Origin: Rhodospirillales bacterium
GTDB lineage: Bacteria > Pseudomonadota > Alphaproteobacteria > Acetobacterales > Acetobacteraceae
Direction: 5' to 3'
Length of the DNA: 64,000 bases
Assembly (NCBI GenBank): GCA_025352565.1
Contig: JANXTF010000125.1
Span: forward strand, 1-64,000
Program-made: the position numbers and the translations under genes
Notes under the pieces: generated by a model
Databases searched by the model: none
Told to the model about the DNA's origin: nothing
Seen by the model: only the letters and a program-made list of their open reading frames with translations
Shown here: positions 28,674 through 53,372 of the stretch, in pieces
How positions within the stretch are numbered: position 1 is the first letter of the stretch
How the letters are laid out: each line of letters starts with the position of its first letter

Positions 28674-28699
28674 CGTCATTGCGAGGAGCCGCAATGACG
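28674..28699 (+). promoter_or_regulatory. Perfect hairpin holding the ribosome-binding site in its loop and the start codon in its stem
   Basis: The left arm CGTCATTGC (28674-28682) pairs perfectly with GCAATGACG (28691-28699). The 8-base loop GAGGAGCC contains the Shine-Dalgarno sequence of the next gene, and its ATG (28694) is inside the right arm. In RNA the start codon would be paired. It may tune translation of the ATPase or be a REP-like element that happens to sit here. Confidence 0.55.
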
Positions 28700-29743
28700 C
28701 ACGCTGATTTCCGTGCCCTGCACCTGCGCGGCATGAGCCGGGATTTCGGATTGCTGAACGCGCTGAAGGGCGTGGATCTCACGGTCGAGCGGGGCGAGTT
28801 CATCGCCCTGCTCGGGCCGTCGGGCTGCGGCAAATCGACGGCACTCAACTGCCTCGCTGGATTGCTGCCGCTCACGGCCGGCAGCATCTGGCTGGACGAC
28901 AAGCGGATCGACCGGCTGGGACCGGAGGATCGCGGGTTCGGGATGGTGTTCCAGAACTACGCGCTGTTCCCCCACATGAATGTGCGGCGGAACATCGGGT
29001 TCGGGTTGCGGATGCAGCGGCGCGTGAAGGCCGAGATCGACGCCAAGGTGGAGGAGGCGATCCGGCTGGTGCGGCTGGGCGCGCAGGCGGAGAAGCTGCC
29101 GGGGCAGATTTCCGGCGGCCAGCAGCAGCGCGTGGCAATCGCGCGCGCGATCGTGGTGGAGCCGCCGCTGGTGCTGATGGACGAGCCGCTTTCCAACCTC
29201 GACGCGAAATTGCGGCTGGAAATGCGGGCCGAAATCCGCCGCATCCACAACCTGCTCGGTTGCGCCACGATCTATGTGACGCACGACCAGGACGAGGCGC
29301 TGTCGCTGGCCGACCGGATCGTGGTGCTGCGCGACGGGCAGGTGCGCCAGATCGGCACGCCGGAAGTGCTGTATGCGCGGCCGGCGCATGCCGATGTGGC
29401 GGAGTTCATGGGCTACCGCAACGTCTTGCCGGCGCGCGCCATGCGCGATGGGGGCATAGTGCGGGTGTCCGTCGGGCAGGCGACTTTCGCGGGCACGCTG
29501 GTGGACGATGTGAACGACGGCCCGGCGCTGGCCGCGATCCGGCCCGAGGATCTGACGCCCCGCGACGGCGGGCCGTTGGCGGCGAACGTGCGTACCGCGG
29601 AATACCGGGGCCGGGACTTCTACGGCGTTGCCGTCACGGCGGATGGAACGGAGTTGTTCTTCCGGGCGGAACATCGCGTGGCCACCGGCGAGACGCTGCA
29701 TCTCGGCGCCGACGCTTCGCGCGTTCTCGTGTACGCCGCATGA
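28694..29743 (+). CDS. PotA/UgpC-type ABC transporter ATP-binding protein
   Basis: 349 residues. Walker A GPSGCGKST near residues 38-46, signature ISGGQQQRVAIARAI, Walker B LVLMDEPLSNLDAKLRLEMR, H-loop YVTHDQDEALSL, and a TOBE domain at the C-terminus. It is the only ATPase beside the three PotBC-like permease pairs of this window. ATG 28694 is embedded in the hairpin described at 28674-28699; a TTG at 28670 is an unlikely longer start. The stop overlaps the next permease by four bases. Confidence 0.9.
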   Translation: MTHADFRALHLRGMSRDFGLLNALKGVDLTVERGEFIALLGPSGCGKSTALNCLAGLLPLTAGSIWLDDKRIDRLGPEDRGFGMVFQNYALFPHMNVRRNIGFGLRMQRRVKAEIDAKVEEAIRLVRLGAQAEKLPGQISGGQQQRVAIARAIVVEPPLVLMDEPLSNLDAKLRLEMRAEIRRIHNLLGCATIYVTHDQDEALSLADRIVVLRDGQVRQIGTPEVLYARPAHADVAEFMGYRNVLPARAMRDGGIVRVSVGQATFAGTLVDDVNDGPALAAIRPEDLTPRDGGPLAANVRTAEYRGRDFYGVAVTADGTELFFRAEHRVATGETLHLGADASRVLVYAA

Positions 29744-35126: not shown

Positions 35127-35981
35127 ATGACAGTCACCCGCTTCGCCCCGAGCCCGACCGGCCACCTCCATCTCGGCCACGCCTTCGCGGCGCTCACCGC
35201 ATGGCGGCGGGCGCGCGACGCGGGCGGGCGTTTCCTGCTGCGGATCGAGGATATCGACCGCGCGCGCTGCCGGCCCGAATACACGGCCGATCTGCTGGAT
35301 GACCTCGCGTGGCTCGGCCTGGACTGGGACGGCGGGACGCGCCTGCAATCCGAACACATGGGCGACTATTCCGCGGTACTTGCCGATCTCCAGTCCCGCG
35401 CGCTGGTCTATCCCTGCTTCTGCACCCGGGCCGACATCGCCGCCGCGGGCAGCGCGCCGCAAGGGCCGGACGGTGCCTCGGTCTATCCCGGCATCTGCCG
35501 CGCGCTGCCGCCGTATGTCCGGACAGCCCGGATCGCGCGCGGTGCGCCGCATGCCTGGCGACTCGACATGGCGGCGGCGACGGCGCGCGCCGGGGCGCTG
35601 AGCTTCGTCGAGGAAGGGCAGGGCCGCCTCGCCTGCGCCCCCGAGCGGTTCGGCGATGTGGTGCTTGCCCGCAAGGACGCGCCCGCCAGCTACCATCTGT
35701 GTGTCACGCATGACGACGCGATGCAGGGCATCACCCTGGTCACGCGCGGGAACGACCTGTTGCCGGCGACCGGCATCCATCGCTTGTTGCAGGCGCTGAT
35801 GGGCTGGCCGGCGCCGATCTACGCGCATCATCGTCTGCTGACGGACGCGTCTGGCCGGCGTTTGGCCAAGCGGGATTTCGCGCAGACCTTGCGCGCGATG
35901 CGGGCAACGGGCATGGCGCCGGTGCAGGTTCGGGCGGCGGCGATGGCGCTAAGCCCGGCGGAAATGGGGAGTTCGGGATGA
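35127..35981 (+). CDS. gluQ: Glutamyl-queuosine tRNA(Asp) synthetase
   Basis: 284 residues: the catalytic domain of glutamyl-tRNA synthetase without the anticodon-binding part, as in GluQRS (YadB). The HIGH-type motif is HLHLGH near residues 13-18, the KMSKS-type motif is RRLAKRD, and the zinc site C-F-C with a distant YPGIC is present. It glutamylates queuosine at the wobble position of tRNA-Asp. ATG 35127; TTG 35124 one codon earlier. The stop overlaps the next gene start (ATGA). Confidence 0.93.
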   Translation: MTVTRFAPSPTGHLHLGHAFAALTAWRRARDAGGRFLLRIEDIDRARCRPEYTADLLDDLAWLGLDWDGGTRLQSEHMGDYSAVLADLQSRALVYPCFCTRADIAAAGSAPQGPDGASVYPGICRALPPYVRTARIARGAPHAWRLDMAAATARAGALSFVEEGQGRLACAPERFGDVVLARKDAPASYHLCVTHDDAMQGITLVTRGNDLLPATGIHRLLQALMGWPAPIYAHHRLLTDASGRRLAKRDFAQTLRAMRATGMAPVQVRAAAMALSPAEMGSSG

Positions 35982-37069
35982 GACACGTGAAAATTCTGCT
36001 GGCCGCCGCCTTCCTGGCGGGGCTCGCCACCGCCGCGCACGCGCAAAAACGCGAGGTGAACGTGTTCAATTGGTCGGATTACATCGACCCCAAGGCGCTT
36101 GAGCGCTTCGAGCGCGAGACCGGCATCCATGTGCGCTACGACGTGTACGACAGCCTGGAGACGCTGGAGGGCAAGATGCTGGCCGGGCATTCCGGCTACG
36201 ACGTGGTGGTGCCCACCAGCGAGCCGACCTTCTCGCGGCTGATCCGGGCGGGGGCCCTTCAGAAGCTCGACCGGGCGAAATTGCCGCATCTGGCCAATCT
36301 GGACCCGGCGCTGATGGCCCGCGTGGCATCGTCGGACCCGGGGAACGCGTACGGCGCCATCTATCTTTGGGGAACCACGGGGATCGGCATGGACCCGGTC
36401 AAGGTGGCGAAGCTGGCACCCGACGCCGCCCGCGACAGCTGGGACCTGCTGTTCAAGCCGGCGAACGCGAAACGCCTCGCCGCCTGCGGCATCACCATGC
36501 TGGACAGCGCGATCGACGTGATCCCGTCGGTTCTGCACTATCTGGGCCATGACCCGAACAGTGCCGCGCCGGCCGATCTCGCGGACGCCGAGCGCGCGTT
36601 GAAGGCGATCCGGCCCTATATCCGCAACTTCGCGAGCGGCGGGGCGATCGAGCAGATGGCGTCCGGCGAGACGTGCCTGGCACTCGACTATTCCGGCGAC
36701 GTGATCCAGGCCTCGGTGCGGGCCAAGGAGGCGGCCAAGGGCGTGAGCGTCAAGTATGTGCTGCCCCGCGAGGGCGCGCAGATCGCATTCGACATGCTCT
36801 CCGTGCCCAAGGATGCGCCGCATCCGGCCGAGGCGCTGGCGTTCATCGACTTCATGCTCCAGCCTGACGTGATGGCGGGTGTCACCAACATCGTGCGCTA
36901 CGCGAACGCGATCCCGGCCAGCCACGACAAGATCGCCGCCGAGATCGCCGGCGACACCGGCACCTACCCCACGCCCGATCTGATGGCCCGCACCTTCACC
37001 GTCCATGCCATCAGCGCGGACGCCACCCGTGCCCGGTCGCGGATGTGGGCGCGCTTCAAGGCCGGCTGA
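35978..37069 (+). CDS. Polyamine-type ABC transporter periplasmic binding protein (PotF/PotD-like)
   Basis: 363 residues, signal peptide ending near AHAQ. The mature start EVNVFNWSDYIDPKALERFERETG is a PotF/PotD signature, followed by YDVVVPTSEP. It binds putrescine, spermidine or a related amine in the periplasm. Two permeases follow, but no ATPase is encoded in this operon; the PotA-like protein at 28.7 kb may serve it. It overlaps gluQ by four bases, an unusual link between a tRNA-modifying enzyme and transport. Confidence 0.9.
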   Translation: MRHVKILLAAAFLAGLATAAHAQKREVNVFNWSDYIDPKALERFERETGIHVRYDVYDSLETLEGKMLAGHSGYDVVVPTSEPTFSRLIRAGALQKLDRAKLPHLANLDPALMARVASSDPGNAYGAIYLWGTTGIGMDPVKVAKLAPDAARDSWDLLFKPANAKRLAACGITMLDSAIDVIPSVLHYLGHDPNSAAPADLADAERALKAIRPYIRNFASGGAIEQMASGETCLALDYSGDVIQASVRAKEAAKGVSVKYVLPREGAQIAFDMLSVPKDAPHPAEALAFIDFMLQPDVMAGVTNIVRYANAIPASHDKIAAEIAGDTGTYPTPDLMARTFTVHAISADATRARSRMWARFKAG

Positions 37070-37878
37070 GCCCGCCCGGCTTGCGCGCGCTCGTCCCCGC
37101 CTGGGCCTGGCTGATCGGCTTCGTCGCGATTCCGGCGGGCCTGCTGGTGGCGATCGGGCTGGCGAGCCCGGATGATGGTGTGCCGCCTTACGTGCTGGGG
37201 CTGGATTTCGGCAATTTCGCGGCGATCCTGAGCGACTCGTTCTACCTTGGCGGTTTCCTGGGAAGCCTGAAGGTGGCGGCGGTCTCGTCGCTGATCTGCC
37301 TGGTGCTGGGGATGCCGCTGGCGCTGGGCATCGCGCGCAGTCCCCCGGCGCGCAGGCCCGTGCTGCTGCTGCTGCTGATGCTGCCGTTCTGGACCGGGTT
37401 CATGCTGCGCATCGCGGCACTTGTGGGATTGCTGCGCGATGACGGATGGCTCAACGCGGGGCTCGGCCTGGTAGGGGTAGCGCCGATCCCGATGCTGCAC
37501 AGCGACTTCGCGATGTATGTGGGCATCGTGTACGATTACATCGCGTTCCTGGTGCTGCCGCTCCAGGCGCGGCTCGCGGGCATCGACCCGGCCTTGCGGG
37601 AGGCCGCGCGCGACCTCGGCGCCTCGGGTTTCGCCGTGTTCCGCGAGATCACCTGGCCGCTGGCCCGGCCCGGCGTGCTGGCCGGGCTCGCCTTGGTGTT
37701 CGTGCCGGCGATGGGGGAATACGTGATCCCCGAATTGCTGGGCGGTGCGTCGTCGCAGACCATGGGGCGGGTGATCTGGGACGAGTTTTTCGGCAACCAT
37801 GACTGGCCGCGCGCCTCCGCACTGGCGGTGCTGCTGCTGGTGGCGCTGCTGGCCCCGGCGATTTTGGCGAGGCGATGA
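37045..37878 (+). CDS. PotH/PotB-type ABC permease
   Basis: 277 residues with six helices and an EAA loop REAARDLGASGFAVFREITWP near residues 188-208. GMPLALGIAR and PFWTGFMLRIAAL are typical PotB/PotH blocks. The start is uncertain: GTG 37045 overlaps the binding-protein gene by 25 bases, whereas TTG 37081 lies just after its stop; neither has a good ribosome-binding site. Confidence 0.86.
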   Translation: MGALQGRLSPPGLRALVPAWAWLIGFVAIPAGLLVAIGLASPDDGVPPYVLGLDFGNFAAILSDSFYLGGFLGSLKVAAVSSLICLVLGMPLALGIARSPPARRPVLLLLLMLPFWTGFMLRIAALVGLLRDDGWLNAGLGLVGVAPIPMLHSDFAMYVGIVYDYIAFLVLPLQARLAGIDPALREAARDLGASGFAVFREITWPLARPGVLAGLALVFVPAMGEYVIPELLGGASSQTMGRVIWDEFFGNHDWPRASALAVLLLVALLAPAILARR

Positions 37879-37916
37879 TCGGCTTGTCGATGGCGTTGTT
37901 GCTCATCCCACCCCGG

Positions 37917-37937
37917 CCCTCCCCACCAGGGGGAGGG
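37917..37937. repeat. Short GC-rich hairpin between the two permease genes
   Basis: CCCTCCCC (37917-37924) pairs with GGGGAGGG (37930-37937) around a five-base loop. The sequence class (CCCTCCCCACCAGGGGGAGGG) resembles dispersed intergenic elements known from high-GC proteobacteria; only one copy was noticed in this window. It may affect the relative level of the downstream permease. Confidence 0.45.
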
Positions 37938-37981
37938 GGACGTAAGCCCGGATGCCAGTCCGTCTCGCCCGGCTTTCCGCC

Positions 37982-40017
<2,036 letters not shown>

Positions 40018-43750: not shown

Positions 43751-44380
43751 TCACCTGGTCCCGAACAGCCGATCTCCCGCATCGCCCAGTCCCGGCCTTA
43801 TATACCCGTGCGCGTCCAGGCAGCGATCCACGGCGGCGGTGAACACCGGCACGTCGGGATGTTCGCCGGTGAACAAGGCCAGTCCCTCCGGGGCTGCCAG
43901 CAGGCAGACGAACATGATCTGCGTGGCCCCAGCCTCCTTCAGCCGGCCCACGGCGGCGGTGGCGGAATGGCCGGTGGCGAGCATCGGGTCGATCACGATG
44001 ACCTGGCGTTCAGCCAGATCGGGGGGCAATTTCAGGTAGTATTCGACCGGAATCAGCGTCTCGGGGTCACGATAAAGCCCGATATGGCCCACTCTGGCAG
44101 AGGGTACCAGGTCCAGCATTCCGTCCAGGATGCCGAGGCCCGCGCGCAGGATAGGTATGAAGCATAACTTCTTTCCCGCCAGGACCGGCGCTTCCATCGC
44201 CTCGAGCGGCGTGTCGATACCGATCGTCTCGAGCGGCAGGTTGCGGGTTACCTCGTAGGCCATCAACAGACTGATTTCCCGTGCAATTCGCCGGAAATCG
44301 GCGGTCGGCGTCTCGCGGCGGCGGAGCAGGCTCAGCTTGTGCTGGACCAGCGGATGATCGACCAGGGTGACGCTGCTCAT
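43751..44380 (-). CDS. upp: Uracil phosphoribosyltransferase
   Basis: 209 residues, the standard length. The opening [21 protein letters not shown], the [16 protein letters not shown] block and the PRPP-binding loop [16 protein letters not shown] are diagnostic; [18 protein letters not shown] is the usual end. It converts uracil plus PRPP to UMP. The start overlaps the RibA-like gene by four bases. In the URC uracil-degradation pathway a UPRT (URC6) and a RibA-like protein (URC1) act together, and this pair fits that arrangement. Confidence 0.95.
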
Positions 44381-45654
44381 GACTCCAACCCGCGCCCCTT
44401 CGGCGCCGCCAACTCGGCGGCGTTCGGCACGTGGTCGGTGGTGAAATATCCTGCGGCCTTTTTCGCATCCATTTCCACGCTGGCATCGGCTGGAATGAGC
44501 GCGTCCGGGATCGGCACCCGCTCGATCACCTCGATGCCGCTGGCCACGATGGGGGCGTATTTCATGTTGCTCATCGACACCAGCCGGTCGATCCGGGCGA
44601 TGCCCAGCCAGTGCAGGACGTCGGGCATCAGCTCCTGGAACCGCATGTCGCTGACGCCGGCCACGCATTCCGTGCGCTCGAAATAGCTCTCCGCCCGGTC
44701 GCCTCCCTCCTGGCGCTTGCGGGCGTTGTACACCAGGAACTTGGTCACCTCGCCCAGCGCCCGGCCCTCCTTGCGGTTGTACACAACCACGCCCACGCCG
44801 CCCTGTTGCGCGGTCTCGATGCAGACCTCGATGCCGTGCGCCAGATACGGCCGGCAGGTGCAGATGTCGGAGCCGAACACGTCCGAGCCGTTGCACTCGT
44901 CATGGATGCGGCAGGCGATGCGCGTCGCGGGGCGGCCCAGTTTGGCAACATCGCCGAACAGATAGACGGTCATTCCCCCGATCGGCGGCAGGAACACGTC
45001 CAGATCGGGCCGGGTGACCAGTTCGGGGAACATCCCGCCCGTCTGCTCGAACAGCCCGCGCCGCAGGTCGTTCACGCCGATGCCGAAACGCCGCGCCACG
45101 CCCGGCAGGTGCCACACCGGCTCGATCGCGATTTTCGTCACCCGCGCGTCGCCGGAGGCACCCAGTATTTCGCCGTCGGGAACCAGCCGGCCCTCCCGCA
45201 AGGCGGCCACGATCTCGGGCATGTTGATATGCGCCTTGGTCACCGCGATGCTGGGGCGGATATCGGCGCCCGCCAGCCGGCGGTCGGCGTAAACCTGCCC
45301 CGCCATGTGCCCCCACGGATCGAGCGAGACGATCAATTCGGGGTCGGACCACTGCGGAAACGGCCCGATCGGCTCGGCGGGTGCGGTGTTGGTCAGGTCC
45401 GGCCGATGCCCCGCATCCAACTGCCCCGCCGCGATGGCGAGCGCCCGGTACAGCGAATATGCCCCCGAATGCGCCCCGATGGCGCTGCGGGCGGCGGTGT
45501 CGTTGGCCCCCGCGATCACCGGGCCGCGCGCCTCCGGGTCGGCCGCCCCCCAGGCGATGCGCCCGGCCCGGTCGGCCACGTTGCGGGGATGCGACGTCAG
45601 CACGATCGAGCGCGGCGGCTTGCGGTCGTTCGCCATCAGCGGGGAGGAGGTCAT
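44377..45654 (-). CDS. GTP cyclohydrolase II-like protein, URC1 type (uracil catabolism)
   Basis: 425 residues, twice the length of RibA: an N-terminal domain of about 200 residues precedes the RibA-like part. The zinc site is seen as [15 protein letters not shown] (three Cys), and [22 protein letters not shown] resembles the RibA substrate region. The N-terminal half ([20 protein letters not shown]) is typical of the long URC1 form rather than riboflavin enzymes. URC1 in yeast is needed for uracil use via a phosphoribosylated intermediate. Coupling with upp supports that role; a riboflavin role is possible but less likely. Confidence 0.78.
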
Positions 45655-45737: not shown

Positions 45738-46880
45738 GTGAGCCAATCGACCGAAACCGTCCTCATCGCGGGCGCCGGGCCCGTGGGCCTGGCCGCTGCC
45801 GCCAGCCTCATGCAACGCGGCATTCCCGTGCGTGTGCTGGAGCGGCGTGCCTCCCTCAACGCCGCCTCGCGGGCCTCCACCTTCCACTCCCCCACCCTCG
45901 AATTCCTCGACCGCCTCGGAATCGCGGCCGATCTCGCCGATCGCGGCCACCGCGTCGAGGCGATCCACTATTACGACCGCGCGGAAGGCCTGTTCGCGGC
46001 CTTCCCGCTCCGTCTGCTGGTTCAGGACACCCCGTTCCCCTACCGCCTCCACCTCGAACAAAGCGAACTCGCCGCCATCCTCGCCGGCCGGCTTGGCGAC
46101 GCCCTGGCACTGGACTCCGAGGTGGTGGGCGTCGAGAACACCCAATCCGGCGTCGCCGCCGCCATCCGGGCCGCCGATGGCACCATCCGCCACGAGCACG
46201 GAAACTTCCTGATCGCCGCCGATGGCGCGCGCGGCCCTGTTCGCGTGGCGCTCGGCATCGCCTTCGAGGGGGCCGATTACGACGACCGCGTGCTCCGGGT
46301 GATGACCGCCGAAGACCTCGCCGCCCGCATCCCCGGCCTCGCCTCCATCGCCTACATCTTCGACGGCGCCGCCTCGTGCAGCCTGCTGCGGATGCCCGAT
46401 CTGTGGCGCATCATCTTCCGCGTGCCGTCCGATGAGACCGACGCCGAGGCGCTGGAGCCCGCGCGCCTGCGTGCCCGCCTCGCCCGCTTCCTGCCCGAAG
46501 GCGCCGCCATCCGGATTGCCTCGACCGACATCTACCGCGTCAGCCGCCGCGTCGCCGCCACCTACCGTCAGGGCAACGTGCTGCTCGCCGGCGACGCCGC
46601 CCACGTCACCAACACGCGCGGCGGCATGAACATGAACGCCGGACTGCACGACGCCGAGGCCGCTGCCACCGCCATCGCGGCGGCGTGCGGCGGCGATGCG
46701 GCGGCGCTCGGCCGCTACGCGGCCACCCGCCGCCGCGTGGCCGTGGAGAAACTTCTCCCGCGCACCGACCGCGTGGTCGCCGCCGGTCCCGCATTCCTCG
46801 CCACCATCCGCGAAACCGCCGCCGACCCGGCGCAAGCGCGGGCCTTCGTGCTGGCCTCGTCGATGCTGGACATGGTTTAG
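45738..46880 (+). CDS. FAD-dependent aromatic-ring monooxygenase family protein (PHBH/UbiH fold)
   Basis: 380 residues. The N-terminal dinucleotide motif GAGPVGLAAAASLMQRG near residues 12-28, LIAADGARGPVR (the DG motif) and GDAAHVTNTRGGMNMNAGLHDA (the GD motif for the ribityl chain) are complete. It hydroxylates an aromatic compound with NAD(P)H and oxygen. The start is GTG 45738, divergent from the RibA-like gene across 83 bases. Its stop overlaps a small minus-strand frame by four bases. The protein is shorter than phenol hydroxylases and lacks a C-terminal domain. Confidence 0.86.
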   Translation: MSQSTETVLIAGAGPVGLAAAASLMQRGIPVRVLERRASLNAASRASTFHSPTLEFLDRLGIAADLADRGHRVEAIHYYDRAEGLFAAFPLRLLVQDTPFPYRLHLEQSELAAILAGRLGDALALDSEVVGVENTQSGVAAAIRAADGTIRHEHGNFLIAADGARGPVRVALGIAFEGADYDDRVLRVMTAEDLAARIPGLASIAYIFDGAASCSLLRMPDLWRIIFRVPSDETDAEALEPARLRARLARFLPEGAAIRIASTDIYRVSRRVAATYRQGNVLLAGDAAHVTNTRGGMNMNAGLHDAEAAATAIAAACGGDAAALGRYAATRRRVAVEKLLPRTDRVVAAGPAFLATIRETAADPAQARAFVLASSMLDMV

Positions 46881-47067: not shown

Positions 47068-48039
47068 ATGAACACCGACATGCTGCATGTGCCTCATGGC
47101 CTCGATGCCGCCCACGCCGATTTCTCCCGCGCCATGGCCTTCATCGAGGGCGCTTACGTGCCGCTTGCCGAGGCGCGCATCTCGGTGCGGGATTTTGGCT
47201 TCACCCACGCGGATTCCACCTACGACGTGCTGCACACCTGGCGCGGCGGGTTCTTTCGGCTGGACGACCATATGGACCGCTTCGAGGCCTCCATGCGGGG
47301 AATGCGGCTCGACCCCGGCCTGTCCCGAGCCGAAATGGTAGGCGTGCTGGAAGAGCTGGTCCGCCGGACGGGTCTCGCCGACACCCTGGTCTCGTTCTAC
47401 TGCACGCGCGGCGCCCCGCCGCTCGGCTCGCGCGACGCGGCCCTGGCGCGCAACACCTTCTTTGCCACGGTCCAGCCGCTGGTGCTGCGCGGCACGCCGG
47501 AGCAGATGGCGCGCGGCCTCTCCCTGCTGATCCACCCGAGCATCCGCCGCTTCCCCGCCGACAGCCTCGATCCGCGCCTGAAGAACCTGCATTGGGGGGA
47601 TTTCACCCGCGCCCATTTCGACGCGGCGGACCAGGGCTTCGATACCGTGGTCCTGGCCGACCATGCGGGCCACGTCACCGAAGGCCCCGGCTTCAACATC
47701 GTCGCCGTGATCGACGGCGCGCTGCTGGCGCCAGACTGGAACGTGCTCGAGGGCGTTAGTTGCCGCACCATGATCGAATTGGCCGCCATCGCCGGCATCC
47801 CCGCGCGCTATGGCAAGCTCACGCCCGAGGCGCTGCGCGACGCCGACGAGGCGTTCATCACCTCCACCTCCTGCGGCCTGTTCCCGGTCACCCGCATCGA
47901 CGCCCGCGTGCTGGGCAACGGCGCGCCAGGCCCGCTCACCACGCGGCTGCTGAACCTGTACTACGGCAAAAAGGCCGAGGGCTGGCACATCACGCCGATT
48001 CCGGGCCTCGGCGGCGTCGTTTCCGCCCCCGTCCATTGA
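47068..48039 (+). CDS. Class IV aminotransferase (D-amino-acid / branched-chain type)
   Basis: 323 residues of fold type IV. The PLP-lysine is in DPRLKNLHWGDF near residue 180, and VTEGPGFNIVAVIDGALLAP plus LEGVSCRTMIELA are the cofactor-phosphate region. FIEGAYVPLAEARISVRDFGFTHAD is the usual start. Members act on D-amino acids, branched-chain amino acids or aminodeoxychorismate; the SVRDFGFTHAD start without BCAT-specific regions slightly favours the D-amino-acid or (R)-amine type. It leads the 47-50.7 kb plus-strand group that includes two permeases. Confidence 0.85.
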   Translation: MNTDMLHVPHGLDAAHADFSRAMAFIEGAYVPLAEARISVRDFGFTHADSTYDVLHTWRGGFFRLDDHMDRFEASMRGMRLDPGLSRAEMVGVLEELVRRTGLADTLVSFYCTRGAPPLGSRDAALARNTFFATVQPLVLRGTPEQMARGLSLLIHPSIRRFPADSLDPRLKNLHWGDFTRAHFDAADQGFDTVVLADHAGHVTEGPGFNIVAVIDGALLAPDWNVLEGVSCRTMIELAAIAGIPARYGKLTPEALRDADEAFITSTSCGLFPVTRIDARVLGNGAPGPLTTRLLNLYYGKKAEGWHITPIPGLGGVVSAPVH

Positions 48040-48044
48040 TCGGT

Positions 48045-49241
48045 GTGCGTGCGGTTGCGGATAACCGCGTGCGTTGCCCGAACCTGCTGGCCATCGGGCT
48101 GCTCTGCCCGGCGCTGCTGCTGATCCTGCTCGCGTTTCTGGGGCCGCTCGCGATCGATCTCGCGACGGCGGTGCGCGATCCGCAACTCTCCGCCGCGCTG
48201 CCGGAAAGTGCCGCGCTTCTGCGCGCGTGGCACGGCGGCGGCCTGCCCGACGAGGCGGTGTTCGCCTCCGTCGCGCACGAATTGGCGGCATCGGAAAGTG
48301 CCGGAAACATCGGCCCGCTCGCGCGGCGGCTCGAGTTCGAGCGGAGCGGTTCAGGCTCCCTGCTGCTGCTTACCGCGCGCGCCGAACTCGTGGCGCCCTA
48401 TGCCGCCGCCATGGCGGCGCTCGACCCGCGATGGGCCAACCCCACCCTGTGGCAGAGGCTGCGGCGCGACGCGGGCGGTGTCACGCCGCTCTATCTGCTG
48501 CGTGTCCTCGATCTCGATATCGGCGATGCGGGCAGTGTCGTGTCGGCGCCGCCCGATCGGGCCATCTTCCGCCGCCTGTTCGCCCGCACCTTCGGGATCG
48601 GCCTCGTGGTCACCGTGCTCTGCGTCATGCTCGGCTATCCCGCCGCCCACGCGCTCGCCACGCTGCCGCCGCGTTGGGCCGCGCCCGGCCTCGCCTTCGT
48701 GCTGGTGCCGCTCTGGATCTCCATCCTGGTCCGCGGCACGGCCTGGTTCATCCTGCTGCAACGCGACGGCCCGGTGAATGCGGCGCTGCTCGCGAGTGGC
48801 CTGGTCCCGCAGCCTTTGGCGCTGCTCTTCACCCGCTTCGCCATCATTCTCGCCATGGTTCATGCGCTGCTGCCGTTCATGATCCTGCCGCTGGTTGGCG
48901 CGATGCGCCGGATCGACCCTGCCTGTCTGCGCGCCGCCGCCAGCCTCGGCGCCACCGGTCCGCAGCGCTTCCTGCGCGTGTATCTGCCGATGACCATGCC
49001 GGGCACCGCGGCGGGCATGCTCATCGTGTTCATCCTGTCGGTCGGCCTCTACATCACCCCGGCGCTCGTGGGCGGCAGGCGCGACCAGATGGCCAGCGCG
49101 TTCATCGCCGAATACGCCAAGCTCGACGTCAACTGGGGCATGGCCGCGGCCCTGGCCATTGTGCTGCTGGTGGTCGCCGGCCTGATTGTCGGTCTCGCGC
49201 GGATGCTGCTGCCGCGTGGCGCCACGGCACGGCAATTCTGA
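48045..49241 (+). CDS. PotB-type ABC permease with long periplasmic loop; no partner ATPase nearby
   Basis: About 398 residues, roughly 100 longer than a standard PotB. After TM1 (LLCPALLLILLAFLGPLAI) comes a hydrophilic region of about 140 residues, then the regular core (FGIGLVVTVLCVMLGYPAAHALA) and EAA loop RAAASLGATGPQRFLRVYLP. The start is unclear: GTG 48045 is used, TTG 48036 overlaps the aminotransferase stop, and GTG 48069 is possible. Neither a binding protein nor an ATPase gene is adjacent, so this pair must borrow components. Confidence 0.83.
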   Translation: MRAVADNRVRCPNLLAIGLLCPALLLILLAFLGPLAIDLATAVRDPQLSAALPESAALLRAWHGGGLPDEAVFASVAHELAASESAGNIGPLARRLEFERSGSGSLLLLTARAELVAPYAAAMAALDPRWANPTLWQRLRRDAGGVTPLYLLRVLDLDIGDAGSVVSAPPDRAIFRRLFARTFGIGLVVTVLCVMLGYPAAHALATLPPRWAAPGLAFVLVPLWISILVRGTAWFILLQRDGPVNAALLASGLVPQPLALLFTRFAIILAMVHALLPFMILPLVGAMRRIDPACLRAAASLGATGPQRFLRVYLPMTMPGTAAGMLIVFILSVGLYITPALVGGRRDQMASAFIAEYAKLDVNWGMAAALAIVLLVVAGLIVGLARMLLPRGATARQF

Positions 49242-50026
49242 TGCGCGCGGCGCTCCGCTGCTACACCGCACTCCTCCTGCTGCTGCTGGTGGCGCCCGTT
49301 CTGGTGGTGCTGCCGCTGTCCTTTTCGTCGGGCACGCTGCTCGCGCTGCCGGTGCCGGGATGGTCGTGGCGCTGGTACGAGGATTTCTTCACCGGCGGAC
49401 CCTGGATGCTCGCCACCCGCAACTCCTTCGAGGTCGCGGCCATGACCGCGCTGCTCGCGACCCCGCTCGGGACCGCGGCCGCAATCGGCCTCCGCCTCGG
49501 CCGCTTCCGGGGCAGGGCAATCGTGCTCGCGCTGCTGACCGCGCCGCTCGCGGTGCCGATCGTCGTCACGGCGGTGGCGCTGTATTTCGCCTTCGCCCGC
49601 ATCGGGCTGAACGGCACGCTCGCCGGCCTGATCCTCGCCCATACCGTTCTGGCGCTGCCTTACGTGGTGCTGACGGTGCTGGCCGCCTTGCGCGATTTCG
49701 ACCCGCTGCTGCCGCGTGCCGCCGCCAGCCTCGGCGCCCCGGCGTGGTTCGCCTTCCGTGCCGTCACGCTGCCGCTGATCGCGCCGTCGGTCGCCGCCAG
49801 CGCGCTGTTCGCATTCGCCATCAGCTTCGACGACCTGATCGTCGCCCTGTTCGTCGCCGGGCCCGAGCAATTCACGCTGCCCCGCCGGATGCTCGCGGGG
49901 TTGCGCGAGTCGCTCGATCCGACCCTCTGCGCGGCCGCCGTTCTGCTGACGGCGGTGTCGCTGCTGCTGCTCGGCGCCGCGCGGATTCTGCGCCCGCGTG
50001 GTTTATTCATCACGGAGATTCGCTGA
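49241..50026 (+). CDS. PotC-type ABC permease, partner of the preceding gene
   Basis: 261 residues with six helices. EAA loop PRAAASLGAPAWFAFRAVTLP near residues 161-181 and ISFDDLIVALFVAGPEQFTLPRRM are PotC-like. It overlaps the upstream permease by TGATG and its stop directly abuts the next ATG, so transport and the maleate-isomerase-like gene are one transcription unit. Confidence 0.87.
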   Translation: MRAALRCYTALLLLLLVAPVLVVLPLSFSSGTLLALPVPGWSWRWYEDFFTGGPWMLATRNSFEVAAMTALLATPLGTAAAIGLRLGRFRGRAIVLALLTAPLAVPIVVTAVALYFAFARIGLNGTLAGLILAHTVLALPYVVLTVLAALRDFDPLLPRAAASLGAPAWFAFRAVTLPLIAPSVAASALFAFAISFDDLIVALFVAGPEQFTLPRRMLAGLRESLDPTLCAAAVLLTAVSLLLLGAARILRPRGLFITEIR

Positions 50027-50752
50027 ATGCCGCTGTTCCCCACCCATCGTGTCGGCCTCGTGACGCCGAGTGCCAATCCGAGCTACGAGCCGGAATTGCG
50101 GCTGCTGCTGCCCGACCGCATCGCCGTTCACGCCACCCGCCTGCCCTTGATGCCCGGCACCACGCTGCAGGAGCGCAATTCGCGCTACATCCCGGCCTAC
50201 ATGGAAGTGATGGCGGGCTTCGGCGCGCTGGCACTCAACCTGATCGCCATTGGCCTCACCGGGCCGTCCTATGCCCTCACCCCGGCCGAGGATCAGGGAT
50301 TGCAGGAGCGGCTTTCGCGCAATGCCGGGCGGCCGGTGGTGCTGCCGACGCTGGGCATCTCGCTGGCGATGCAGCGCGTCGGGGTGCGACGTGCCGTGAT
50401 CTTCTCGGCCTATCCGGGCTGGCTGACCGACCGGGCGGAGATCTATTGGCGGGCGGCTGGCATCGACGTGGTCGACGTGTTCAAGGTCTCCGAGGCGTTC
50501 CGTGCCTATGAGCTGACCACGGCCGAGATCGTGGCCGCCCTGCGCCGCGTGAGCGTGCCCGACGACGCGGCGCTCATCATGTCCGGCACCGGCATGTTCT
50601 CGCTCGATGCGCTCGACATCTGCCAGCCGGAAACCAAGGCGCTGCTGTTGCCCTCCAATCTGGCGACGGCCTTCGCCGCGCTGCGGATGCTCCGCCTGCC
50701 GCCATCGGACGTGTTCACCCGCATCTCGCCACGCCTCGCGGCGGCGATCTAG
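50027..50752 (+). CDS. Maleate isomerase/Asp-Glu racemase superfamily protein without the canonical cysteines
   Basis: 241 residues of the maleate cis-trans isomerase / arylmalonate decarboxylase type (RVGLVTPSANPSYEPELRLLLP at the start; FSAYPGWLTDRAEIYWRAAGIDVV in the middle). The two catalytic cysteines expected after the second and fifth strands are replaced: IGLTGPSY and MSGTGMFS stand where A/S-C-T/S-x motifs normally occur. The only cysteine is in DICQPE. Either the chemistry differs or the protein is a binding partner. It starts on the base after the permease stop. Confidence 0.78.
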   Translation: MPLFPTHRVGLVTPSANPSYEPELRLLLPDRIAVHATRLPLMPGTTLQERNSRYIPAYMEVMAGFGALALNLIAIGLTGPSYALTPAEDQGLQERLSRNAGRPVVLPTLGISLAMQRVGVRRAVIFSAYPGWLTDRAEIYWRAAGIDVVDVFKVSEAFRAYELTTAEIVAALRRVSVPDDAALIMSGTGMFSLDALDICQPETKALLLPSNLATAFAALRMLRLPPSDVFTRISPRLAAAI

Positions 50753-51987
50753 GGCAGGACCGTCCGCTGGATCGTTTCGGCATCTGGCAGGTGGCCGGCA
50801 TAGCGGTGGAACTTCGCGACCACGTCGGCCTCCGACATGGGGGTTGCCGGATCGCCGGGCACGGCGTCGATCATGGCGGACAGGCGGCCCGCATGGGTGT
50901 CTATCGTCAGGCGCGCGGCCCGGCGGCCGGCGGCGGTCATCGCCGGGTCCTCGACCAACTCCACCATCGCCTCAAGGCGCCGCAGCCCGGCATTCCGCAT
51001 GTCGCGATAGGCGCCCGGCCCAAGGTCGCCGAACGTCAGCCCGGCGGCGACCGCGAAGGAGAGGCTGAACTGCGCGGCAATGGGCGCCACCGGCGCACGG
51101 TTCCCGGCATAGCGCAGCGCCTCGCCATAGGTCTCGAGCCGGATGGCACGGATGGCGAGCGGATCGCTCACTTGCCCGCGCAACGCGATGGCGGCGGAGG
51201 CGGCGTAGTGGGCGTGGCGCACGGCGGCGAAGGGCTTGATGTAGGCCTCCAGGATCAGCCATCGCCCGGCCGGCGTGCGGGCGGCCGCAGTGGCGGGGTC
51301 GGCCAGCAGGGCGAGACGCCGGGCCTCGGCAAGCCCGCCCGCCGGCGCGGCGATGCCCGCCCCGGATGCGGCGGCGGCCAGCGCGCCCAGCAATGCCGCG
51401 TGGGCCGGATAGGTGTTCCGCCCGGTCATGCCGAACGCGATGGGGCGATACAGGCTGAACGGGATCTGGCACGCGGCCAGCCGGATCGCCTGCGCCGGGT
51501 CCGCTCCGGCGAGCGCGGCACACGCAGCCGCGGCACCCAGCGCGTGCCAGCTGCCATCCACGTGCATCCCCGGCCGGATGCGCCATATCTCGCCCGCCCG
51601 CGCCCCCACCTCGTAGCCCAGCGCCAGCGCCCGCAACCGCTGCTCGAGCGGCAGCCGGCTGGCCAGCACGGCCGGGATCACCGGCAGTCCAGGCCGGCCA
51701 TGGGCCAGGGCAAGCCCCTCGTTGGCCTCGTCCCAGCACATCGCGGCCGCCCCCAGGGCGGCGGCCCCGGCCGGGCCGAGCGAGACCGGCGCGCCCGGCA
51801 GCGTCACGTCGCCGGGAAACCACGCCGCCAGGGAATGCGCGAATTCCGCCACCTCGGCGTGCCGCATCCCGGCCGCGATGCAGGCAATGGCGTCGAGCAG
51901 CAGCAGCCGCGCGCGGCGCTCCACGGCTTCGGGCAAGGTGCCGGACGCCCAGGCGATCACATCGTCGAACTCGGTGGGGTCGCTCAT
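50749..51987 (-). CDS. MmgE/PrpD family protein
   Basis: 412 residues of the MmgE/PrpD fold, which includes 2-methylcitrate dehydratase, cis-aconitate decarboxylase and iminodisuccinate epimerase. ARLLLLDAIACIAAG, GMHVDGSWHALGAAAACAALAG and YIKPFAAVRHAHYA are recognisable. ATG 51987 is preferred because AGGAG lies nine bases upstream; ATG 51996 would sit directly on it. It is convergent with the maleate-isomerase-like gene (4-base overlap) and divergent from the flavin monooxygenase, suggesting a shared function. Confidence 0.87.
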   Translation of the reverse strand: MSDPTEFDDVIAWASGTLPEAVERRARLLLLDAIACIAAGMRHAEVAEFAHSLAAWFPGDVTLPGAPVSLGPAGAAALGAAAMCWDEANEGLALAHGRPGLPVIPAVLASRLPLEQRLRALALGYEVGARAGEIWRIRPGMHVDGSWHALGAAAACAALAGADPAQAIRLAACQIPFSLYRPIAFGMTGRNTYPAHAALLGALAAAASGAGIAAPAGGLAEARRLALLADPATAAARTPAGRWLILEAYIKPFAAVRHAHYAASAAIALRGQVSDPLAIRAIRLETYGEALRYAGNRAPVAPIAAQFSLSFAVAAGLTFGDLGPGAYRDMRNAGLRRLEAMVELVEDPAMTAAGRRAARLTIDTHAGRLSAMIDAVPGDPATPMSEADVVAKFHRYAGHLPDAETIQRTVLP

Positions 51988-52022
51988 CGGCCACATCTCC
52001 TTTCACCAGTGAGGCAGCGCGC

Positions 52023-53372
52023 ATGACCCGCCAGATACGGCTCAACGCCTTCGACATGAATTGCGTCGGGCATATCCAGCATGGCCTCTGGACCCATCCG
52101 CGCGACCGATCGAGCCAATACACCGACCTCGCCTATTGGACCTCGCTCGCCCGCACGCTGGAGCGCGGCCTGTTCGACGGGTTGTTTCTGGCCGACGTGG
52201 TCGGCATCTACGACGTGTTCGGCGGCGGCCCGGACGCGGCCCTGCGCCACGCGGTGCAGGTTCCGGTCAACGACCCGCTCCTGCTGGTCCCGGCGATGGC
52301 GGTGGTGACGGAGCATCTGGGGTTCGGGGTGACCTGCAACACGACGTACGAGCCGCCCTACCTGTTCGCGCGCCGCATGTCCACGCTCGACCACCTCACC
52401 CGCGGCCGCATCGGCTGGAACATCGTCACCGGCTATCTCGACAGCGCCGCCCGCGCCATGGGCCTAGCGGGGCAGGCCGCGCATGACGACCGCTACGCGG
52501 CCGCCGAGGAATACATGGACCTGCTGTACAACCTCTGGGAGCATAGCTGGGAGGATGGCGCGGTCGTGCGCGACCGTGCGCGCGGCGTGTTCACCGATCC
52601 GGCGCGGGTCCACGCCATCCGCCACACGGGCCGCTACGCGATGGAAGGCATCCACCTTTGCGAGCCCTCGCCGCAACGCACCCCGGTGCTGTTTCAGGCC
52701 GGTGCCTCGGACCGGGGCCGCGCCTTCGCCGCCCGCCACGCCGAATGCGTGTTCGTGAACGGAACCTCCAAGCCCATCGTGGCGGCCCTGGTCGCCGACC
52801 TCCGCGCCCGCGCCGCCGCCGCGGGGCGCAAGATCCTGGTGTTCGTCGGCGCCACCGTGGTGACCGGCCGCACGGATGCCGAGGCCCGCGCGCTGTTCGA
52901 GGATTATCGCGCCCATGCCAGCGCCGAGGCCGGCCTCGTGCATTTCTCGGCCTCCACCGGCATCGACTTCGCCGCCTTCGGCCTCGACGAGCCGATCCGC
53001 CACTACAAGACCGAGGCCAACCAGTCCAACGTGGAGGCCATCACCACGCGCGCCGACACCGCCTGGACCAAGCGCCGCCTGCTGGACTCCATGGTCCTGG
53101 GCAGCCGCCAGCCGCCGATCATGGGATCGGCGGAGCAAGTCGCGGACGAATTGATGGCCTGGGTCGAGCAGGCCGACGTGGATGGGTTCAACCTTTCGCG
53201 TACCGTGATGCCCGAATGCGTGGAGACATTCGTCGACCTCGTCGTGCCCCTGCTGCAGGAGCGCGGCGTGTACAAAAGCGGCTACCTGTCCGGCACCTTG
53301 CGCGACAAGCTGTTCGGCCATCCGCGCCTCCTGCCGCCGCATCCGGCCGCGCCGGCCAAACGTATCCAATGA
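52023..53372 (+). CDS. NtaA/SnaA/DszA-type flavin-dependent monooxygenase (LLM class)
   Basis: 449 residues, the size of NtaA/EmoA/DszA. Blocks include FDMNCVGHIQHGLWTHPRD, SLARTLERGLFDGLFLADVVG, LDHLTRGRIGWNIVTGYLDSAARAMG (quoted in part: TRGRIGWNIVTG) and PVLFQAGASDRGRAFAARHAE. It uses FMNH2 from a separate reductase, not found here, to oxidise substrates such as nitrilotriacetate, EDTA, dibenzothiophene sulfone or pristinamycin. The MmgE/PrpD neighbour makes an aminopolycarboxylate-like substrate worth testing. Confidence 0.87.
   Translation: MTRQIRLNAFDMNCVGHIQHGLWTHPRDRSSQYTDLAYWTSLARTLERGLFDGLFLADVVGIYDVFGGGPDAALRHAVQVPVNDPLLLVPAMAVVTEHLGFGVTCNTTYEPPYLFARRMSTLDHLTRGRIGWNIVTGYLDSAARAMGLAGQAAHDDRYAAAEEYMDLLYNLWEHSWEDGAVVRDRARGVFTDPARVHAIRHTGRYAMEGIHLCEPSPQRTPVLFQAGASDRGRAFAARHAECVFVNGTSKPIVAALVADLRARAAAAGRKILVFVGATVVTGRTDAEARALFEDYRAHASAEAGLVHFSASTGIDFAAFGLDEPIRHYKTEANQSNVEAITTRADTAWTKRRLLDSMVLGSRQPPIMGSAEQVADELMAWVEQADVDGFNLSRTVMPECVETFVDLVVPLLQERGVYKSGYLSGTLRDKLFGHPRLLPPHPAAPAKRIQ

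Follow-up and report, generated by a model that had tools for sequence, protein, structure and literature searches.

The 64,000-nucleotide stretch of DNA analysed here (the window; positions 1 to 64,000 of contig JANXTF010000125.1, from the Rhodospirillales bacterium assembly GCA_025352565.1) is part of a 106 kb contig in a 4.5 Mb alphaproteobacterial genome. Between positions 45738 and 53372 it carries a compact locus of genuine open reading frames, each with a strong family match, in operon-like spacing. Six of them, encoding a flavin adenine dinucleotide (FAD) monooxygenase, an aminotransferase, two ATP-binding cassette (ABC) permeases, a protein with the maleate-isomerase fold and a member of the MmgE/PrpD family, constitute a real unit. 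The seventh, encoding a flavin mononucleotide (FMN) monooxygenase, is a neighbour that probably lies outside it. The locus represents a new arrangement of known enzyme families together with one unusual enzyme, a maleate-isomerase-fold protein which lacks the family's active-site cysteines. The genes are as follows.

45738..46880, plus strand: class-A FAD monooxygenase, a probable ring oxygenase (PF01494)
47068..48039, plus strand: fold-type IV aminotransferase of the (R)-amine-transaminase type (PF01063)
48045..49241, plus strand: PotB-like ABC permease with a long N-terminal insertion (PF00528)
49241..50026, plus strand: PotC-like ABC permease (PF00528)
50027..50752, plus strand: maleate-isomerase/arylmalonate-decarboxylase-fold protein without active-site cysteines (PF17645)
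50749..51987, minus strand: MmgE/PrpD-family protein of a separate clade, a probable (de)hydratase of a substituted aconitate-like acid (PF19305, PF03972)
52023..53372, plus strand: NtaA/DmoA-family FMN monooxygenase, a neighbour probably outside the module (TIGR03860)

The FAD monooxygenase gene lies 187 bp upstream of the aminotransferase gene on the same strand. A gap of 5 bp separates the aminotransferase and PotB genes, the two permease genes overlap by 1 bp and the isomerase-fold gene follows PotC without a gap. The isomerase-fold and PrpD genes meet tail to tail with a 4 bp overlap, and the start of the PrpD gene is 35 bp from the divergent FMN monooxygenase gene. Open frames and family matches thus bear out the gene positions and the contiguous or overlapping layout described in a first-pass annotation, as well as its placing of the PrpD gene between a convergent and a divergent neighbour. 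The annotation had also grouped the aminotransferase, permease, isomerase-fold and PrpD genes as one catabolic-looking unit, and this set does recur in unrelated genomes.

To follow the unit in relatives, 120 related genomes were searched with the isomerase-fold and PrpD proteins, GTDB genomes were scanned and the neighbourhoods in about 20 relatives were compared. The conserved unit starts one gene earlier than position 47068, with the FAD monooxygenase. No partner of the isomerase-fold protein is more constant than this enzyme: their genes stand side by side in nearly all module-type instances, as they do in several Actinobacteria (Micromonospora, Nonomuraea, Streptomyces). The recurrent set in unrelated bacteria comprises substrate-binding protein, PotB, PotC, PotA, FAD monooxygenase and isomerase-fold protein, with PrpD placed tail to tail or divergently. 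Both permeases of the window share a cluster with a binding protein and an ATPase of their own in Chachezhania, a Rhodobacteraceae metagenome-assembled genome (MAG), Hyphomicrobiales MAGs, Rhizobiales IMCC20636 and a Methylobacteriaceae MAG. Other genomes show the unit divided or reordered. In the genome labelled G120 the FAD–isomerase pair is divergent to PrpD (locus L061), and the aminotransferase (68% identity), a binding protein and both permeases form a separate operon elsewhere in the genome (L171). In G312 (L193) GntR is followed by the aminotransferase (65%), an ATPase, the FAD monooxygenase, the isomerase-fold gene and hemC. Such modules are rare: apart from the window genome, only G312 had a close isomerase-fold protein when 385 genomes of the class were sampled.

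The isomerase-fold protein belongs to PF17645 (36.8 bits, cut-off 25.9) and adopts the fold of the Asp/Glu-racemase superfamily, with a profile match of E = 5e-16 to 2xec. Its structural model (pLDDT 95.6) gives a TM score of 0.88 to the Pseudomonas putida maleate isomerase Iso and of 0.78–0.79 to arylmalonate decarboxylase (AMDase). Despite sharing fold and family with AMDase and EutA, it falls far below the cut-offs of both equivalogs, scoring 33.6 bits against 318 for EutA (TIGR02990) and 29.2 against 225 for AMDase, and differs from them in having both cysteine positions replaced. The characteristic motifs are GLTGPSY and SGTGM. All 14 aligned module-type members have Leu, Met or Ile at the first active-site cysteine position, whilst the cysteine is kept in gammaproteobacterial and actinobacterial homologs; the second is Gly throughout, within a Gly-Thr-Gly motif. 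SGTGM, assigned by motif, stands in place of the catalytic cysteine found in the C-terminal half of AMDase-type enzymes. The description of the protein as cysteine-less in the first-pass annotation therefore stands for both active-site positions but not for the whole chain, which retains one cysteine away from them. Distant homologs on Rhodococcus and Streptomyces plasmids (L095, L096, L097) adjoin LysW/ArgC/RimK-type amino-group-carrier biosynthetic clusters, two of which include NtaA/DmoA-type monooxygenases.

The enzymes encoded upstream of this protein are of recognisable types. The FAD monooxygenase (PF01494, 170.7 bits) is an FAD_binding_3 protein with Rossmann and GD motifs, of which GAGPVGL and GDAAH are invariant in three members; identity within the module is approximately 39–53%. 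Its nearest solved relatives are PnpA and the 6-hydroxy-3-succinoylpyridine 3-monooxygenase HspB. The aminotransferase finds its best solved matches mostly among (R)-amine transaminases (E = 3e-67 onward), enzymes whose substrates are amines and not alpha-amino acids, with classical branched-chain aminotransferases and D-aminotransferases scoring far lower. It is 65–68% identical to the copies in G312 and G120. Fold IV transaminases occur in the window genome, G120 and G312 and class III orthologs in nine module genomes, the absence of fold IV enzymes having been checked in the loci at hand rather than genome-wide. The PotB-like and PotC-like permeases are 47–57% and 53–62% identical, respectively, to module permeases. 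PotB carries about 120 extra residues near its N-terminus, an insertion which may be conserved, since its module relatives are of similar length (385–398 amino acids). The permeases were rightly called orphans: there is no ATPase gene within the locus, and the genome holds no ortholog of the binding protein, the best match being 35% identical compared with 51–58% in relatives.

The PrpD protein scores 52.9 and 89.1 bits against the N- and C-terminal Pfam domains of its family (cut-off 32.1), and its clade members share 43–63% identity. It has both domains and the whole-chain fold in common with methylcitrate dehydratase, cis-aconitate decarboxylase and iminodisuccinate epimerase. By sequence, it belongs to a clade of its own, roughly equidistant from all characterised PrpD types and firmly none of them. 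Profile scores are 91 bits for cis-aconitate decarboxylase, 70 for iminodisuccinate epimerase and 63 for methylcitrate dehydratase, and the score for the 2-methylcitrate dehydratase equivalog PRK09425 is 28.6 against a cut-off of 575. The fold matches cis-aconitate decarboxylase, iminodisuccinate epimerase and MmgE about equally, with 17–20% identity to every solved family member in the structural match. The protein retains histidines and a tyrosine which align with active-site residues of cis-aconitate decarboxylase, but an arginine that is invariant in the clade replaces a lysine of that enzyme. Several further MmgE/PrpD proteins are encoded in the window genome, and a single 27.6 kb contig (C54) accounts for three of these.

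The distribution of this clade is informative. Members scoring above 590 bits to the clade profile are present in the window genome and in G120, G122, G124, G126, G127 and G129. The clade is absent from G121, G123, G128, G135 and a Shinella plasmid, and these five records hold an alternative set made up of an aconitase, an imidase-type hydantoinase, a half-amidase and an enzyme of the methylisocitrate-lyase type. The aconitase and the isochorismatase-family amidase are found in all five, at 73–82% identity to each other's type. The isocitrate-lyase-family lyase is present at ortholog level in each except G135, and only G123, a fragmented assembly, is without the hydantoinase-type amidohydrolase. 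G120 has the PrpD clade and a lone lyase ortholog. Because G124, G126 and G127 represent a single lineage and MAGs make up several of the genomes, the mutual exclusivity amounts to about five lineages against five. The lyase of the relatives is nearest to methylisocitrate and 2,3-dimethylmalate lyases, the half-amidase to N-carbamoylsarcosine amidohydrolase and the imidase to L-hydantoinase. An iminodisuccinate epimerase role had been proposed for the PrpD protein; judged by profile scores and fold search, that assignment is not supported. The substitution of an aconitase set for PrpD in other genomes favours the (de)hydration of a substituted aconitate over epimerisation. A lyase–GntR–aconitase–dihydroorotase-like–isochorismatase set is also present on an Antarctobacter plasmid (L234, 11747–18705), where it adjoins PotABCD importers and a luciferase-like monooxygenase (LLM).

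Our favoured, if still tentative, reading is that the locus represents one form of a rare, horizontally moving module for the uptake and oxidative breakdown of a heteroaromatic acid bearing an amine. Gene content, conservation, mutual exclusivity, fold and residue changes are observed, whereas the individual reactions, like the substrate, are predictions. On chemical grounds, a transaminase, a dehydrogenase, a ring hydroxylase, two amidases, an aconitase or PrpD protein and a lyase can be placed in one consistent order. Import by the PotBC-type ABC transporter would be followed by conversion of a CH2-NH2 side chain to an aldehyde by the amine transaminase (fold IV here, class III elsewhere) and, where an aldehyde dehydrogenase is present, by oxidation of the aldehyde. 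The class-A FAD monooxygenase would then hydroxylate the ring, and the cysteine-less isomerase-fold protein may perform a cofactor-free decarboxylation or tautomerisation of the product. Hydrolysis of the ring C–N bonds, in relatives by the hydantoinase-type imidase and the N-carbamoylsarcosine/maleamate-amidase-type half-amidase, would yield a substituted cis-aconitate or maleate. This would be hydrated by PrpD here and by aconitase elsewhere, and finally a methylisocitrate/dimethylmalate-lyase-type enzyme would carry out a retro-aldol cleavage.

A number of parallels can be drawn with known pathways. The nicotinate and nicotine (nic, P. putida S16) routes of N-heterocycle breakdown combine an FAD-dependent ring hydroxylase, an isochorismatase-family half-amidase and a maleate-isomerase-fold protein, and it is Iso that the module's isomerase-fold protein matches in structure. 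The module differs in that both catalytic cysteines are lacking, an amine transaminase and a PotBC importer are present, and the lower part consists of PrpD or of aconitase and lyase; furthermore, no ring-cleaving dioxygenase is seen in it. Methylisocitrate and 2,3-dimethylmalate pathways employ an aconitase-type hydratase and an isocitrate-lyase-family lyase on substituted acids. The likeness here lies in the lyase family of the relatives, whose lyase part stands downstream of a heterocycle oxygenase and amidases. Histamine degradation (hin) in P. putida U follows a logic of transaminase, aldehyde dehydrogenase, monooxygenase and amidohydrolase; the resemblance is one of enzyme logic, by description only, and PrpD, aconitase–lyase and hem genes have no place there. 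A literature search gave no match between the module and the homarine or trigonelline pathways.

The hem genes provide a clue to the substrate. In Chachezhania, hemC sits between the binding-protein and FAD genes; it adjoins the class III transaminase gene in Shinella and the Hyphomicrobiales MAGs, and the isomerase-fold gene in G312. These copies score 294–336 bits to TIGR00212 (cut-off 164) and include unusual variants (loci L093, L062, L193 and L117–L122). In Shinella and Chachezhania the motif HCVKD replaces the usual HS-KD, an active-site Ser-to-Cys change, whilst the type shared by the MAGs and G312 has a changed GGKGLF lid motif. A tree unites the MAG and G312 copies with actinobacterial hemC in a clade that excludes the other alphaproteobacterial copies, and groups the Shinella plasmid copy with those of Rhodobacterales; in these two cases the hemC accompanying the module is phylogenetically foreign. 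A related Shinella has a different hemC, 51% identical to the plasmid copy. Among 310 matching genomes in a class-wide sample, one has the MAG-type hemC, and that genome has the module. On a plasmid of Streptomyces NBC_00704 another racemase-family gene, hemB, hemA and hemL come after the isomerase-fold and FAD genes, each of the three hem genes scoring over an equivalog cut-off. The Nonomuraea, Micromonospora and Streptomonospora loci contain the isomerase-fold gene, in some cases together with the FAD gene, and, in the stretches read, no hem genes; the second Streptomonospora hemC is not near the isomerase-fold gene. In the Methylobacteriaceae MAG, hemC lies on a contig of 3.4 kb and is not linkable to the module.

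Porphobilinogen is the best guess for the substrate, albeit a doubtful one given the circumstantial nature of the link. Were the module a bacterial porphobilinogen catabolic pathway, the transaminase and aldehyde dehydrogenase would convert the aminomethyl arm, the FAD monooxygenase and isomerase-fold enzyme would open the way to an imide, and the amidases would free a carboxyethyl-substituted cis-aconitate. PrpD or aconitase, together with the lyase, would take this to succinate and 2-oxoglutarate, which by chemical reasoning would derive from the ring carbons and the acetate and propionate arms of porphobilinogen. HemC would draw on the same pool.

Several observations weigh against the module reading, the porphobilinogen link included. 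There is no hemC near the window locus. The window genome lacks orthologs of the binding protein, the class III transaminase (best match 41%), the half-amidase (37%), the lyase (42%) and the aldehyde dehydrogenase; the imidase was not searched for. Other enzymes must therefore serve in place of the dehydrogenase, half-amidase, lyase and binding protein, or else the pathway is partial. hemC is present on 81 plasmid records in varied contexts, with many plasmids having it without the module; it stands beside methylamine dehydrogenase in one case and hemE in another. The association of hemC with the module was noticed after the fact, and its cases are probably two independent associations rather than four. 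The MAG/G312 hemC may be an ordinary copy, as no other hemC was shown in those genomes. The Antarctobacter lower set is accompanied by an LLM oxygenase, with no FAD/isomerase pair in the stretch read; thus the lyase–aconitase–imidase–amidase set is not specific to this upper pathway, which suggests that another heterocycle route uses this lower pathway too. Finally, a literature search found no paper on bacterial porphobilinogen catabolism. The post hoc nature of the association, its few independent cases, the possibly ordinary MAG/G312 copy, the commonness of plasmid hemC and the Antarctobacter set together keep our confidence in porphobilinogen low.

It is possible, if on balance somewhat unlikely, that the module degrades another heteroaromatic amine or acid, such as a pyridine or imidazole, and that the nearby hem genes are coincidental or a matter of local gene order. 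The nearest solved relatives of the FAD enzyme act on nitrophenol and a hydroxypyridine, and the Iso to which the isomerase-fold model is closest belongs to the nicotine-degrading strain S16. Plasmid hemC is not rare, and the module loci L061, L069 and L070, like that of the window, have none nearby. Such coincidence is harder to reconcile with two separate kinds of foreign or unusual hemC travelling with the module, and with a third, unrelated locus carrying hemA, hemB and hemL. That the window copy is a decaying remnant without a working pathway, as its missing orthologs and the want of an ATPase in place might indicate, seems decidedly improbable: all six frames are intact and tightly packed, and the clade-invariant residues are kept. 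Equally hard to credit is a role in removing a toxic porphobilinogen-like antimetabolite, with the accompanying hemC acting as an insensitive copy of the target. The divergence of the Shinella plasmid hemC from that of its relative and the altered active-site and lid motifs would accord with this, and an actinobacterial source would fit a producer origin. However, a dedicated importer and enzymes for a lower pathway suggest that the compound is used for growth rather than detoxified, and we know of no inhibitor of this kind.

The first-pass annotation had called the FMN enzyme an NtaA-type monooxygenase and proposed that it cleaves a C–N bond. The FMN monooxygenase (TIGR03860, 537.7 bits, cut-off 279.7) is instead closest to DmoA (474 bits) and LadA (456), well ahead of the NtaA-type (186) and EDTA (181) monooxygenases. 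A counterpart is absent from every related module locus, the nearest thing being LLM enzymes of 33–34% identity near two actinobacterial isomerase-fold homologs only. Low NtaA and EDTA monooxygenase scores and the lack of conservation with the module thus speak against NtaA/EmoA-type C–N cleavage of an aminopolycarboxylate. Grouping of the oxygenase with sulfone monooxygenases and of PrpD with methylcitrate dehydratases had been named as telling against that proposal; the oxygenase is indeed of the sulfur/alkane type, whereas PrpD does not group with the dehydratases. An opine or N-substituted dicarboxylic amino acid, degraded through C–N cleavage by the FMN enzyme and epimerisation by PrpD, is accordingly a very improbable substrate, for although the PrpD fold also matches iminodisuccinate epimerase and the broad NtaA/DmoA family includes C–N cleaving members, the FMN enzyme is DmoA/LadA-like and not conserved with the module, PrpD is swapped for an aconitase set elsewhere, and the conserved oxygenase, the FAD enzyme, is of the ring-hydroxylase type.

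Elsewhere in the window, one further gene bears on the orphan permeases.

28694..29743, plus strand: ABC ATPase, a possible energiser of the orphan permeases (42–50% identity to module PotA)

This is the window's best match to the module's own PotA, and it is already paired with its own binding protein and permeases. A second transporter without an ATPase gene, consisting of a PotD-like binding protein and two PotB/C-type permeases, is encoded at 35978–38782. Divergent to the FAD monooxygenase, at 43751–45654, lie mutually overlapping genes for a uracil phosphoribosyltransferase and a URC1-like GTP cyclohydrolase II (PRK07198), which may belong to a uracil-degradation (URC) set. These genes were considered as part of the module and rejected, there being no link to it in any relative.

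If the interpretation of the module as a catabolic pathway is correct, it would offer a gene-level hypothesis for the bacterial breakdown of a heme precursor or a similar pyrrole; should the substrate prove to be porphobilinogen, the route would be one not yet described. It would also reveal a group of maleate-isomerase-fold enzymes that work without the catalytic cysteines of their family. Meanwhile, the mutually exclusive PrpD and aconitase sets suggest a function for a hitherto uncharacterised clade of PrpD proteins.

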